A stretch of 64,000 bases of DNA from Phellopilus nigrolimitatus (taxonomy: Eukaryota; Basidiomycota; Agaricomycetes; Hymenochaetales; Hymenochaetaceae). A program made the translations under genes and the position numbers. Position 1 is the stretch's first letter; each line of letters opens with the position of its first letter. Below the pieces are notes generated by a model. The model worked only from the letters and a program-made list of their open reading frames with translations, had not been told where the DNA came from and ran no database searches. Positions 6,040 to 38,901 of this stretch are shown piece by piece. The stretch spans positions 186,001-250,000 of the forward strand of contig JAJOHG010000015.1 in NCBI GenBank assembly GCA_021029095.1. Direction: 5' to 3'.

Positions 6040-6590
6040 TGAGGGGAGGCAACGCCTGCCAAAAGAGTGTGCACGCTTTGTAATCTGACAAATGATCGGC
6101 ACTTCCCAAATTAAGAAATTTTGGTGGCAAAATTTTACAGATGGCCAACTTGATGCAATTCAGCCACTCCTTGCTGATTTTTATTCTTTTAAAGTCATAG
6201 AACTGTATTTTAAGGCTATACATACAATAATCATTTAATATAATGTAGCTTGTTTCTGAGGGAAGACTTATAGCAAAGAAAAGAGCAGGGGGAGAGCGCA
6301 TTTTCGGCTGACACGTGACCTCAGCGCACAGGAATGCCCGCGCATACATGCAAACGCGCAGAACGAGTTTTTGAGCTCAATTCTCATCTGTTTTACACGA
6401 TTTAAGCTGGAAAATTCTCGGGTGATATGGGGCTAGGAGGTCTACTTTGTCTATTTTTTAATTTCGCCCTCAAAGTACCAGAACAACGGTCTTACATGGC
6501 TGTTCTGGTACTTTGAGGGAGAAATTTTAAAATCGACAAAGTAGACCTCCCAGCCCCATATCACCCGAGAATTTTCCAGCTTAAATCGTG
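6040..6590 (+). mobile_element. hairpin MITE, truncated copy 1
   Basis: Homologous over its whole length to the complete element at 35214-35898. The left terminal repeat starts at 6040 (TGAGGGGAGGCAACGCCTGC, one G-to-A change against copy 2). Inside is a large inverted repeat with arms 6398-6485 and 6501-6588, separated by a 15-nt loop. The right terminal repeat is missing: similarity to copy 2 stops just after 6590 and unrelated sequence follows, so this copy is 3'-truncated. No coding capacity. The copies differ by many substitutions and small indels, so neither is very recent. Confidence 0.8.
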
Positions 6591-7194
6591 CAAAACTATT
6601 CAAAAACAAATTCATACTACGGCTTTAGCCGAATTGAGCGCTTACGTGCCCTTATTTGGAGCGAATTACTCTCTTTCTTTCCCTCCCTCCGCAAAAAAAC
6701 CCGAACTCTTGAGCCTGATAAATAAACGTTGAATTATACTTACAAAGAAATATAAGGTCTGGCAAGAAAAAATTGGGTCTACAGATTTCTAACAATACAT
6801 CACGTGACCACGTACATGTACATGTACTTGTGGCTGCCCCCTCTCCCGGCGGCCGGGCCACGGTGAGAGCTTGTCATGATGGCTTGTTTTCGCAGCCTTA
6901 TTGGAGCATAAAACAGCTCAGATTAAGCCTTAGTCATACACGCTTCGCTATCCCCCTAATATGTGGGCACCCCACATATCCAATCATGGTTTTATGTCTT
7001 ACGAACTTGAAATACGGGCGCTAAGCGGCGGTAAGGAGTCCAAGCACTTATAAAATGTAACTTCTTACGAGGTTTAATTAACCCGTAACATCTTAAGTGA
7101 ATTTACGTTTTGCTGATGTATTCAGTCACGTGACGTTTTTTTCTAACTTTCGGCGTGCCAAAGTGTATTTCCTTCCTCCGTTATTCTGTCAATT
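6591..7194. other. gene-free stretch beyond truncated transposon
   Basis: No supportable gene. It contains a short alternating palindrome near 6811-6827 (GTACATGTACATGTAC). It lies between the broken end of the hairpin element and the first dioxygenase relic. Confidence 0.4.
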
Positions 7195-34474: not shown

Positions 34475-34868
34475 AAGACAAACACCATGAAAGAGTATTT
34501 CTTGCTGTCAGAGAGTCTTGAAATACATACAGGAAATGTATCTACTCACCTCTTTGTTGCTGTCAGAAAGACTGAGGCAACAAAGGCGATGATGCACTTT
34601 GGAATAGGTCTGATTACATAAGAGGAACTGTACAGTACCAGTCTGATGGGGATCCGACGTGTATTTACTCTTGAAGCACATAAGTCACTTTTCTGACACC
34701 TGTCGGAAAGCCGGAAAGTTGGAAATTCAGAAAGTCGGAAATCGGAAAGTCAGACATTTGGTCGGCCTGTCGGAAACTTGAATGTGTCAGGAGCACTCTG
34801 GCGGGCTTACACAAGTGCTTCAATATCCCTGACACACCCGCCAGCACCCATCCCATGGGTCATCCACA
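34475..34868. repeat. gene-free stretch with short GGAAA repeats
   Basis: No gene. Around 34690-34760 the sequence repeats GTCGGAAA/CCGGAAA/TTGGAAA units of 8-11 bp about six times, imperfectly. It borders the left arm of the inverted repeat at 34869. Confidence 0.4.
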
Positions 34869-35179
34869 GGTTTTTGCTAATTTGCTGATAGTGTAATGAG
34901 TTCTTCTCCGATTGCAGTGCTCTTATATGCAAAATGTGTGCACTGCCACATGCTACAAGTTGCAAAAACACGCACCAAGTCTGTGCGGTCATCAAAACCC
35001 GTAGAAGTGAACTTAGATGACCCGTTTGCATCTTGTGTTACCATTATTAGCCCCCTACAGTTTGAACCCGCATGTTGCCCGTCTCCAGCGGCTTATGCCT
35101 TTCAGGGTCTTCCGGCCTTTTCCGTTCCCACAGCTGCTGGAATTTTAAAGGTTTCTGGCGACGGCACCATTCGGCAAAT
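34869..35179 (-). repeat. left arm of a large inverted repeat
   Basis: Reads, in reverse complement, as a close copy of 36139-36399: both begin near GCCGAATGGTGCCGTCGCC, pass through GGCCGGAAGACCCTGAAA and end at AGCAAAAACC. This arm has ~50 bp extra in its middle. The hairpin element at 35214-35898 inserted in the spacer between the arms. Neither arm has a supported gene, although a 98-codon frame crosses this one. Confidence 0.75.
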
Positions 35180-35206
35180 ATACAACACGTGATTACTTGC
35201 TAGTCC

Positions 35207-35213
35207 TTTCCAT
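35207..35213. repeat. 7-bp target-site duplication TTTCCAT (left)
   Basis: TTTCCAT directly precedes the terminal TGGGGGG of the hairpin element. The same seven bases follow its other end at 35899-35905. Confidence 0.7.
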
Positions 35214-35898
35214 TGGGGGGAGGCAACGCCTGCGAAAAAAGTGTGCACGCTTTGTAATCTGACAAATGATCGGCACTTCCCAATTTAAGAAATTCCAATG
35301 GCAAAGGCCTACAGATGGACAACTTGACGCAATTCAGCCACTCCTTGCTGACTTTTATTTTTTTTAAGTAATAAAACTGTATTTTAAGGCTATATATACA
35401 ATAATCACTTGATATAATGTAGCTTGGCTATAAGGAGAAATTTGTAGCAAAGAAAAGAGCAGGTGAGCGCATTTTCGGTTGTCACGTGATCTCAGCGCAC
35501 GCAGAAATCGCCGCGCATACATGCAAATGCGCAGAACGATTTTTTGAGCTCAATTCTCCATCTTTCCGCACGATTTAAGCTGGAAAATACTCGGGTGATA
35601 TGGGGCTGGGAGGTCTATTTTGTCGATTTTTTAATTTCGCCCTCAAAGTGTCAGAACAGTGGTCTTACATGGCTGTTCTGACACTTTGAGGACGGAATTA
35701 AAAAATCGACAAAATAGACCTCCCAGCCCCATATCACCCGAGTATTTTCCAGCTTAAATCGTGCGGAAAGGTGGAGAATTGAGCTCAAAACATCGTTCTG
35801 TAACTTTTCTTTCGCTCATGAGCCGCAAAAATTCCGTTTTTGGTAGACATGTAAACAACTACAAATGCACACTCTTTTGCAGGCGTTGCCTCCCCCCA
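35214..35898 (+). mobile_element. hairpin MITE, complete copy 2 (685 bp)
   Basis: Terminal inverted repeats of ~33 bp: TGGGGGGAGGCAACGCCTGC at 35214 and its complement ending at 35898, extending with an AAAAGTGTGC-like tail. Flanked by identical TTTCCAT duplications. Internally a 127-bp inverted repeat (35532-35658 against 35674-35800) leaves only a 15-nt loop, so the right half is essentially one long hairpin. No coding capacity, hence non-autonomous. The superfamily is not clear: a 7-bp duplication is compatible with several cut-and-paste groups. A truncated relative is at 6040-6590. Confidence 0.85.
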
Positions 35899-36138
35899 TT
35901 TCCATGTTTATTTTTCATCCGTTTCGCAATTTTTGCATGTACAAGTAGGGTCAAAAATAATACAGTCTCAAATAAAATGCAATTTTTCACTGACAGCTAC
36001 ATTCAAGTATGGTACAATGAGCAATCGGGGTACAGTAACTTGCTATTGCGAGATACACTTTTTTTTTTGGAGGATTCGGAGGTTCGGGGACATGTCACAG
36101 ATGTTCCTTTCAGTTCAAATCGAGCAGGTGTTACAGTA
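35899..36138. other. spacer between inverted-repeat arms
   Basis: Starts with the right TTTCCAT duplication. Together with 35180-35213 it is the original spacer of the inverted repeat before the hairpin element inserted. AT-rich, with a T-run near 36059-36068. No gene seen. Confidence 0.4.
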
Positions 36139-36399
36139 ATTGCCGAATGGTGCCGTCGCCAGAAACCTTTAGAATTCCAGCAGCTGTGGGAACGGAAAAG
36201 GCCGGAAGACCCTGAAAAGCATAAGCCGCTGGAGACGGGCAACATGCGGGTTCGAACTGTAGGGGGCTATTGCACTAAACTGGGTGTATGTTTTTGCATC
36301 TTGTAGCACTTGACAGCGCACACAGGTCAAATATATGATCATTGCAATCGGAGCAGAACTTGCTGTGTTATCTACACTGTCATAAAATTAGCAAAAACC
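36139..36399 (+). repeat. right arm of a large inverted repeat
   Basis: Complement of 34869-35179. On this strand a tRNA-like B-box, GGGTTCGAACTG, lies at 36248-36259, with a weak A-box-like AAGCATAAGCCGCTGG about 28 bp before it. The arm may therefore derive from a Pol III-transcribed SINE. The left arm has GGGTTCAAACTG at the same place. This is inference; no 3' tail or target duplication was found. Confidence 0.6.
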
Positions 36400-36609
36400 C
36401 AGGGATCAACTCGCACTGCGCAGTATGCCCTACCATGCAGCAGCCTCTTGCAAACTAGGGCATACCACGAGTCTTTAGAACCCGTGGGTACCCATGACCC
36501 GACCTGGACTACAGATCCGCATTCACGGATCACCCGTACACGGGTGATCCGTGGGAAACGGATTTTTGCGGGTCCGGGTTGAGAATTCTCGATTTTTCAA
36601 TACCCGTGG

Positions 36610-37128
36610 GTAATTTCCACGAACAACATCTCCTTCGCGCTCTTCCACCCGAATCTGCCGCTGCTCATCAGCGGCAGCGAAAACGGCCCGTCGAGAACAC
36701 GTTCAGCTACGCGCTCGAGTGCGCATGGTGCGTCGCGGTCTTCGATGAGGGCGTCGTCGTCGTTAAGCTCGGCCCTGCTCAGCATGGACCCGCCGGCAAG
36801 CTCATCTACACGCGCAACATCAATGCGCTCTCCGCAAACCTGCAGGCCGCCGCAAACGTCGAGATGCCTGAGGGCCAGCGCATCCACCTCCCCGTACTCA
36901 AGCTCGGCTCGACAGAGCTCTATGCAACCTCGTTTCAGCACTCTCCGAACGGGCGCTTTATCATGCTGCGCTCGAATCCGGCGCTGATATCGGAGACGAG
37001 GTGTTGACGGAGGCGAGGGTGTTTAGAAAGCTTTGGCCATCATCGCGGAGATCTCAGAGAAGTACATTTGCTTTTGCCTTTCATTGATGAGACCTCCCTC
37101 TCGCTGGACCTCATAGAATACCAATCGG
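36610..37128 (+). pseudogene. captured fragment of coatomer beta' subunit (SEC27/COPB2)
   Basis: Reads NNISFALFHPNLPLLISGSE up to about 36690, then in another frame VENTFSYALECAWCVAVFDE and GVVVVKLG, then PAGKLIYTRN, MPEGQRIHLPVLKLGSTEL, SFQHSPNGRF, and near 37075 SLSLDLIEYQSAV. These are in order the last WD repeats and following domain of coatomer beta'. Several short deletions, one frame break and premature stops show it cannot make a full protein. The fragment breaks off at ~37128, where FHA sequence begins. Confidence 0.8.
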
Positions 37129-37725
37129 CCGTTCCTCGTCCCCCACCACGATGCCTGCAGCCTTCCCGCCGCATTCGCAGTCATTTCCCGCTTTCTACCT
37201 ATACTCGCTCAACGATTCTTCCATTCCCAAGCACATCAGCCTTCTCAACAATCAGCGAGTAAAGATCGGGCGACAGACCAATGCAAAGACTGTCCCCGGA
37301 GAGCGCAATGGCTATTTCGACTCCAAGATCCTCAGTCGCTGGCATGCCGAGGTCTGGGAGGAGAGCAACAAAATCGTTATAAAGGATGTCAAGAGCTCGA
37401 ACGGCACATGCATGAACGGCGAACGTCTGTCCGCAGAGGGTGTCGAGTCAGAACCGCTCAAATTGGACGACATAGTGGTCAGTAGTCCCCTTTTCCATTT
37501 TTGCGCATCCTTACAGCCTAACAGGATTTCGGTATCGACATCGTCTGCGAGGACAACAAGACGATCGTACACCACAAGATTGCCGCATACATAACCTGTA
37601 TCTTCAACGTCGAGGACGCGCTCGGTGCCGAGCGCGAGGCATACAACTTCCAGCAGCAGCAGAACCGGCAAACCGTTGCTCGCCCCACGGACACGCTCAA
37701 CGCCGCTGCGCACGGGCGTCCCATG
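37129..37725 (+). pseudogene. captured fragment of an FHA-domain gene
   Basis: From 37151: MPAAFPPHSQSFPAFYLYSL, then HISLLNNQRVKIGRQTNAKT and the FHA core FDSKILSRWHAEVWEE and IKDVKSSNGTCMNGERLS. An intact-looking GT-AG intron lies at about 37480-37527, after LKLDDIV. Exon 2 reads DFGIDIVCEDNKTIVHHKIA and a Gln-rich part, breaking off near 37725 at the FCP1 junction. GR, SRxHA and SSNGT are the phosphothreonine-binding signature of FHA. The source is probably a Vps64/Far10-like gene; that name is tentative. Confidence 0.72.
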
Positions 37726-38225
37726 CTACAGCCGCAAATCTGCGAACATTCCGGTCCTCCCAAGCTGTGCCCTTTGCGATCCAGTCCCCGACTGTCGGGT
37801 CAACTGTCGCATGGAGAATTGTCTGATCGAGGTCGACAACGAGAGTCTGCGTGCTTTCAGCAATTGCTCAGCTGTCTCCCGTTCGAGCCGCTGGGCCTCT
37901 TCAGAAGAGATGGTTGGCCCCGACGCTGAGTGTGTCATTTGGATCGTTGCGCGTGACGACTCGAAGCTGAGCCAAAGCCGTCAGCAACACCCGGAACACA
38001 AAATCAAAGAGAAACAGAACGCACCTGTCCATGTCGATACCACATAGCGCGCACATGCCATTAAACTGTACACCATGCTTGCAAGGCTCGACAATGCGCA
38101 AAGCCGGGCGGCCCTTCGCGCGCTCACGCGTGACCGTGTCGCCGACCTTGACGTTCCATGTCTTGTGTTCGCCTTCAAATGTCGCATCCCATGAGCCGAA
38201 GCGCGCCTGCACGAACAGCAAGCGA
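37725..38225 (-). pseudogene. captured fragment of FCP1, RNA polymerase II CTD phosphatase
   Basis: On the minus strand: LFVQARFGSWDATFEG, then RIVEPCKHGVQFNGMCALCG (the FCP1 N-terminal Cys motif), an intron at about 37975-38031, then MTHSASGPTISSEEAQRLER and ETAEQLLKARRLSL. A small frameshift follows, and in the next frame come the DxDxT catalytic motif VDLDQTILHATVDPTVGDW and WEDRNVRRF before it ends at ~37725. Only the first part of FCP1 is present and the frame is broken, so it is not functional. Confidence 0.78.
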
Positions 38226-38269
38226 ACGCACTGTGAAGGGGAAAGGAAATGTGTCGAGGAAGAATATCT

Positions 38270-38640
38270 CTGTGTCTACCTGTGCAGCAGTTGCGAGGGG
38301 AGGAAATTGACGATGATGACAGACTGAGCATTAACACCATTGTTCCGCACGAACTCGAGTCGATTCCGGAGGAGGATGAGTCGGTCTTAGATGAGAGTGA
38401 TGAGGAGCACAGTGAGCGGCGAGATGAGTTCGGTCGGCCGCGAACACCTGAGCTGTCGTCACTTGGCATGCACATACCCTGCTGCCTACGTCGCCCGCGC
38501 CCATCGCCGCGCTCGCATACTCGCCGCCCGTCTGCACTCCGGGCGGGACAGTGGCGGCGCTGCGGCGCTCCTGCTGCTCGCGTACGCCGACGCGACACTC
38601 GCGGTGTTCGACGTCGAGGCATGGCACTTGCTCGCTCAAT
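38270..38640 (+). pseudogene. captured fragment of an unidentified gene
   Basis: A plus-strand frame reads an acidic stretch (RGEEIDDDDRLSINTIVPHE then LESIPEEDESVLDESDEEHS), RRDEFGRPRTPELSSLGM, and in a shifted frame PAAYVARAHRRARILAARLH with AALLLLAYADATLAVFDVE. The composition and the frame change at ~38470 look like a fourth captured host-gene piece. I do not recognise the source. Confidence 0.45.
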
Positions 38641-38901
38641 ACCACCTTACATTTTGTCTTTTGTCTTTTTTATTACATGTATAATAAATTTGTATTTAAT
38701 CAGTTTAAGATCCGCAGGGAGCCGTGAACAAACCCGTGACCTCCGTGACCTGGACCCATGGGTTTTGGGGGACCCGTGAATCCGAGTCCCAACGGGTCCA
38801 GGTCAAGCCGGGTCCGGGTTGAGGATTTTGGGTCACGGGTAGATCCGCCAACAGGTCCGGGTCAACCCGGGGATCGACTCGTGGTATGCCCTATTGCAAA
38901 C

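Follow-up and report, generated by a model that had tools for sequence, protein, structure and literature searches.

The window analysed here is a 64,000-nucleotide stretch of contig JAJOHG010000015.1 from Phellopilus nigrolimitatus, a wood-decay mushroom of the Hymenochaetales in the Basidiomycota (assembly GCA_021029095.1, positions 186,001 to 250,000 of the forward strand). At positions 36456–38893 it contains a 2438-bp element that carries a perfect 18-bp terminal inverted repeat (TIR) at each end and is flanked by identical 8-bp target-site duplications (TSDs). The interior is a chimera copied from four host loci, combining pieces of a coatomer beta' gene, an FHA gene, an FCP1 gene and a WD-repeat gene between ends shared with a transposase-bearing element on contig C423. 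Taken together, the evidence identifies the element, with a probability of roughly 0.93, as a non-autonomous Pack-TYPE (Pack-TIR) member of the hAT family. Its features are given below in window positions; element positions are counted from 36456 = 1, and contigs of the assembly carry the prefix C.

36448–36455, no strand: left TSD TTGCAAAC, present as a single copy in the element-free paralogue on C144.
36456–36473, plus strand: left 18-bp TIR TAGGGCATACCACGAGTC.
36456–36617, plus strand: hAT left terminal region, found family-wide, 85.6% identical to positions 1–160 of the C423 element.
36618–36963, plus strand: first block of the coatomer beta' (COPB2/SEC27-like) fragment, from parent L082 in reverse, 798–1216, with internal losses; 89.9% identical gap-free, 74.2% with gaps.
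36963–37088, plus strand: second coatomer beta' block, from parent positions 1674–1784, 91.7% gap-free; the parental DNA in between is missing.
37089–37131, no strand: 43-bp filler joining the coatomer and FHA pieces, without a match to the four parental loci.
37132–37738, plus strand: first block of the FHA gene fragment, from C555:504333-504952, 92.1% gap-free.
37478–37524, plus strand: retained FHA intron (GTCAGT...AACAG), also present in the parent; splice sites judged by eye.
37739–38204, minus strand: first block of the FCP1 fragment, with a DLDQT motif, from C1:724651-725137, 96.1% gap-free.
37967–38024, minus strand: putative retained FCP1 intron (GTGCGT...CTCAG), also present in the parent; splice sites judged by eye.
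38201–38276, minus strand: second FCP1 block, from C1:724499-724574, 93.4%.
38274–38473, plus strand: second FHA block (element 1819–2018), from C555:505421-505629, 91.5% gap-free.
38473–38620, plus strand: WD-repeat gene fragment (element 2018–2165), from C1:2358239-2358387, about 89–90%.
38621–38722, no strand: 102-bp, partly AT-rich stretch ahead of the right terminal region, present in relatives too and without a match to the four parental loci.
38723–38893, minus strand: hAT right terminal region, 85.5% identical to positions 6421–6592 of the C423 element.
38876–38893, minus strand: right 18-bp TIR.
38894–38901, no strand: right TSD TTGCAAAC.

The boundaries of the element are sharply defined. 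An earlier note on this DNA, made from the letters alone, had described perfect 18-bp TIRs, identical 8-bp flanks and no transposase, and all three descriptions hold: the TIR is exact on both strands, TTGCAAAC stands on both sides, and a Pfam scan of five open reading frames (ORFs) of the element detects no transposase domain. The exact inverted pair accounts for the only two matches to TAGGGCATACCACGAGTC in the window at three mismatches or fewer, where 0.03 are expected, and none of 100 shuffled controls reaches two matches. An 8-bp TSD and short TIRs are both characters of the hAT superfamily, and the TIR start TAGGG presumably follows the hAT pattern as well. A Mutator-like (Pack-MULE) assignment was rejected on the TSD length of 8 bp, against 9 bp in Mutator elements, and a Helitron assignment on the presence of TIRs and a TSD, neither of which Helitrons are known to have.

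The joined element flanks match C144:29771-29947 at 88% across the junction, and this locus, CAGCCTTGCAAACCTGTG, carries a single TTGCAAAC without the element. The empty site that the earlier note looked to sister strains for is present here in paralogous form: C144 is a diverged, non-allelic paralogue of the target site and the sole element-free match, and the assembly yielded no empty site that is allelic. Just upstream, at about 34830–36432, lies a probable degenerate element of a related family, with a right end CAGTATGCCCTA at 36421–36432 (two mismatches to the TIR) followed by CCATGCAG; the C144 paralogue also lacks this element, and a better-preserved end of its type occurs at C35:14434.

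The same termini recur throughout the genome, as the earlier note had proposed to check. In the 56.4 Mb searched, the exact 18-mer occurs 141 times (67 + 74), while the reversed control occurs 0 times, and the 100 of the 141 places that were listed make up 39 pairs of a plus-strand and a minus-strand TIR separated by less than 10 kb. Fourteen of the 39 pairs span 500 bp or less, 23 span 1.8–4.3 kb and two span 6592 bp. Every convergent TIR pair in the fetched loci was then taken, with no filter on the flanks; after two cross-pairs of a nested insertion were set aside and a C614 element, read across two loci, was included, the set comprised 27 elements. Identical 8-bp flanks border 26 of these 27, all 26 flank sequences differ, and one end carries one to three mismatches in 4/27. 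Two copies on C13 (a and b) are 100% identical and two on C606 (a and b) 99.95%, with different flanks within each pair, which indicates recent movement. Additionally, the elements on C24, C18 and C606 (a and b) have a common coatomer/FHA/WD cargo and differing TSDs; transposition after capture is therefore established for these relatives. A further member, a 4259-bp element at C434:196350-200670 with the perfect TSD GTTGGTAG, hosts a nested member of 2084 bp, which is flanked by a separate TSD, AGAGACGC, and carries a piece of EF-G; this EF-G piece recurs at several other genomic places.

A segmental duplication, a retrocopy mosaic or an assembly artefact arising without transposition could be suspected from the fact that some loci lie on second, near-identical contigs (C397 versus C1, 97%). 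The private flanks of the 26 elements, the empty-site paralogue and the retained FHA intron speak against it, and such an origin is almost certainly not the right one.

The C423 element encodes a hAT transposase between the same ends, as the earlier note had suggested looking for. It spans 6592 bp, has the same perfect TIRs as the window element and resembles it over the terminal 160–170 bp on each side; longer terminal blocks agree at 84% over 165 bases and 81% over 185 bases. Its protein is split by introns, and joining 11 exons (splice sites judged by eye) yields 770 amino acids with a Dimer_Tnp_hAT domain (PF05699) at 37.9 bits, against a cut-off of 21.4. A PF05699 scan of the genome gives seven matches and misses this transposase, whose domain is intron-split; reading exon by exon recovered it. 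The protein has 116 homologues among 7991 candidates scored, the top match at 50%; Antrodiella citrinella (47%) leads the named ones, ahead of Phanerochaete, Coprinopsis and Trametes. Exons of related transposases are present elsewhere in the genome, including C603, C488, C290, C4, C346, C611, C25 and C622.

KDZ (Kyakuja-Dileera-Zisupton) transposons are common in basidiomycetes, and the genome holds 73 matches to PF18758, none of them inside a TIR pair among the 100 places listed. A KDZ transposase between these ends was rejected on this ground and because C423 carries the hAT domain. Several of the 73 matches lie in open frames, marking a second population of DNA transposons in this genome.

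Between the ends, the cargo is assigned to host loci except for the 43 and 102 bp listed above. The coatomer beta' blocks (element 163–508 and 508–633) derive from a locus on C23 whose COPA/B propeller scores 133.5 bits (Pfam cut-off 57) and which also has WD40 domains; the fragment alone reaches 20.0 bits, under the same cut-off. A similar coatomer beta' locus lies on C612. Of the 31 coatomer beta' matches in the genome, 13 fall outside the parents and the elements identified here, and some of these may be family members, as TIR places past C533 are incompletely listed. The first FHA block (element 677–1283) matches Pfam FHA at 39.8 bits (cut-off 20.7). The FCP1 piece (element 1284–1821) aligns in reverse to C1:724499-725137, of which there is a second genomic copy at C397; the fragment scores 13.9 bits with Pfam NIF, under the cut-off of 21.8, and the scanned parental ORF, although without a Pfam NIF match, matches solved FCP1 phosphatases (3ef1, E 3.8e-15). 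The WD-repeat parent has a second copy on C176 and a WD40 match of 21.9 bits, under the cut-off of 27; we provisionally label it UTP4-like, a name taken from weak matches (E 0.36 and 0.43).

The parental loci confirm the coatomer, FHA and FCP1 fragments named in the earlier note, together with their orientations, the FHA intron and the DxDxT motif; the FCP1 intron is putative. The same note's "unknown acidic fragment" at 38274–38473 proves to be the downstream part of the FHA locus, so that its count of at least four host genes stands with a different fourth member, the WD-repeat gene, which it had missed. The junctions are as abrupt as it described, and its approximate positions of 37128 and 37725 move to 37131/37132 and 37738/37739. 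All four parental loci (C23, C555 and two sites on C1) lie on contigs other than that of the window. Neither a TIR at three mismatches or fewer nor a match to the element ends was found at the five parental loci inspected (C23, C555, C1 twice and C397). Because the element retains the intron of FHA, and probably one of FCP1 as well, the captured material was genomic DNA rather than mRNA.

Most of the cargo fragments are broken and probably encode no functional proteins. The FHA exon lies in an open frame (ORF 37091–37591, 167 amino acids), as would be expected of a chimeric gene of the host, or of a domesticated locus, held under selection between old transposon ends. The coatomer and FCP1 pieces, however, have internal deletions, FCP1 runs antisense to the remainder, relatives differ in cargo between the same ends, and the composite is seen once (among the best 40 of 280 candidates); a domesticated locus is accordingly very improbable.

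The sister elements carry a range of other gene pieces. Among 20 ORFs picked by eye, nine exceed their Pfam cut-offs (9/10 in the first set and 0/10 in the second): CPSase (C38, C20), WD40 (C20), Piwi (C43), AMP-binding (C346), eIF2alpha (C255), NOT1 (C357, two stretches) and EF-G (C434). The AMP-binding cargo of C346 is presumably acyl-CoA synthetase. Candidate parents that match at 94–98% along the whole piece or a portion of it, among the best 40 of 77 candidates, lie on C2 for CPSase, C13 for acyl-CoA synthetase and C511/C174 for NOT1. The Piwi match on C43 (L070) is an Argonaute PIWI-domain fragment. Three names read by eye, glycyl-tRNA synthetase (C90), a SUV3-like helicase (C112) and GH16 (C346), were not confirmed by Pfam.

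Comparison among relatives reveals an order of capture. The elements on C24, C18 and C606 contain coatomer 798–1217 and 1676/1677–1789, FHA 1501–1929 and 2706–2988 and a long WD piece; in those on C112 and C614 the three pieces are present in shorter form, and C357 combines all three with NOT1. The FHA piece begins at parent position 1501–1504 in the window copy and in C24, C18, C606, C112, C614 and C357, a common junction that suggests a single capture inherited by all of them. The element on C9 has the same right FHA junction (2797) as the window copy, and its FHA stretch runs uninterrupted from 1802 to 2797, whereas the window copy lacks 468 bp of that stretch and has FCP1 in their place. 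FCP1 therefore replaced 468 bp of older cargo, and an FCP1 match occurs in one of the 27 element sequences compared. Divergence from the parents, counted gap-free, agrees with this order: FCP1 (23/541) is less diverged than FHA (65/807; Fisher p=0.0066), coatomer (44/455; p=0.0009) and WD (16/148; p=0.0043). In the tabulated relatives with all three pieces (C24, C606a, C9 and C112), FHA is the least diverged at 6.8–8.9%, and coatomer is less diverged than WD in C24, C606a and C9 and more so in C112. A tree of the joined ends, in which several branches are weakly supported, places the window element with C357, C18, C24 and C606 (support 0.495) and that group with C112/C614 (0.937).

A history compatible with these relationships would begin with an ancestral element containing coatomer, FHA and WD pieces, from which internal deletions would then have produced the present lineages; last, in the window lineage, FCP1 would have taken the place of the 468 bp of FHA. 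A C423-type transposase or a close relative would mobilise the window element in trans through a cut-and-paste mechanism. Capture may occur during repair of the excision double-strand break or at a stalled fork inside the element. In either case, repair would run from both ends inward and the copying strand would switch to an unrelated gene, so that the ends stay, the interior is exchanged and the most recent cargo lies centrally.

An alternative origin for the cargo of this same element is replication-fork stalling and template switching followed by transposition (FoSTeST), in place of excision-gap repair. All four parental loci on contigs other than the window's are consistent with it, as are the roughly 0–3 bases in common at the junctions (judged by eye), and multicopy Pack-TIRs of animals have been assigned to this route (PMC8277862). 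Replacement in mid-cargo with both ends kept, as between C9 and the window copy, is nevertheless also what interrupted gap repair predicts, and the two routes have the template-switch step in common. FoSTeST is a credible route here, to which we give somewhat less than even odds.

Several observations weigh against the reading of a hAT family with ordered capture and subsequent transposition. The FCP1 composite was seen once, as stated above, so the evidence for transposition covers the relatives and not the FCP1 version. FHA does not differ significantly in divergence from coatomer (p=0.35) or from WD (p=0.26), so the order in which outer pieces are older is firm only for FCP1, and parents may evolve unequally. 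Pieces of coatomer and WD also occur in the elements on C90 and C98, yet the ends of these two group with those of C423, C13, C20, C38 and C43; ends and cargo therefore do not have a single common history everywhere, and recombination or conversion between elements is likely. The flanks of C423, GCTCAAAG and GCTCCAGG, agree at only 6/8 positions, an imperfect TSD and the one exception among the 27 elements, and its two 6592-bp copies form an inverted duplication that includes the flanks (C423:5721-19284), which may be real or an assembly effect. The few common junction bases do not separate the capture models, and the cargo of C13/C68, C334 and C83 was not nameable by eye or by Pfam on the chosen ORFs. 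The identification of the window element as a gene-capturing hAT-like element, as first proposed in the earlier note, retains the support of the family copies, the parental loci and the C423 hAT transposase.

Several known systems resemble this one. Pack-MULEs of rice have Mutator ends and a 9-bp TSD and form multi-gene chimeras; they carry gene fragments, as the window element does, with hAT ends and an 8-bp TSD in the present case. Pack-MULEs are mentioned in PMC8277862 and PMC6710886. Pack-hAT and other Pack-TYPE elements are known in plants (Gisby and Catoni 2022, PMC8903248), and plant Pack-hATs are, like the window element, non-autonomous, with hAT-type ends and captured coding DNA. The host here is, by contrast, a basidiomycete fungus, as the earlier note had supposed, and the string "fung" has 0 occurrences in the main text of PMC8903248. 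Animal Pack-TIRs, of which 208/370 cases are hAT (Tan et al. 2021, PMC8277862), likewise place hAT ends around sequence not derived from transposable elements, with distinct TSDs in a multicopy case. They are nearly all single-copy, with four multicopy cases (1.4%) and a median duplicated size of 224 bp (PMC8277862), whereas the present family is a multicopy lineage whose elements combine several gene pieces.

Among fungi, hAT transduplication of histone H3 has been described in the ascomycetes Pyrenophora tritici-repentis (Manning 2013, PMC3538342) and Pseudocercospora fijiensis (Dhillon 2019, PMC6710886), where a captured host gene was amplified as in the present family. Those elements carry one known host gene, histone H3, and retain hAT coding sequence (PMC3538342, PMC6710886). 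They measure 5.6 and 2.3 kb in P. tritici-repentis (PMC3538342) and about 9.5 kb in P. fijiensis, where an intronless transcript or retrocopy was captured (PMC6710886). Here, in contrast, genomic DNA of several genes was captured into elements of 1.8–4.3 kb, with no transposase found where sought. The earlier note's view that such elements are little or not described must consequently yield for hAT gene capture in fungi, which those two papers already report; for a multi-gene Pack-hAT family in a fungus, no report was found among the titles and abstracts listed from the open-licence literature, mostly 8–25 of many papers per list. The window element adds a multi-gene case to the known Pack-hAT kind.

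The most likely consequence of such an element is that it spreads gene fragments as raw material. Exon shuffling and small-RNA effects on the parent genes, both raised in the earlier note, are possible. Production of small RNAs that silence or tune its parent genes could even be the main role of the element, since it unites sense and antisense pieces of housekeeping-type genes in a genome with many Piwi-domain matches (73, counted exon by exon); a divergence of 4–11% from the parents would limit pairing, and this role is unlikely. A broader and tentative proposal, on balance doubtful, is that the hAT family is a running gene-fragment shuffler that keeps its ends and repeatedly replaces its centre, with ancestors, intermediates and descendants in one genome, an ordered record with the newest cargo innermost, and cargo small RNAs that may act on essential parent genes. 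Its cargo includes the Argonaute piece on C43, whose parent gene belongs to the silencing pathway that would be expected to control the family.

There is no settled account of how DNA transposons acquire host genes, and two models are weighed in PMC8277862. The parents, a source of transposase, copies that have the latest capture, others that lack it and an element-free target paralogue occur together in this one assembly, so that the competing models of capture can be compared at each junction. Packing of several genes by hAT elements extends beyond plants and animals, and the window element and its family record the successive steps by which mobile DNA can shuffle the genes of a fungus.

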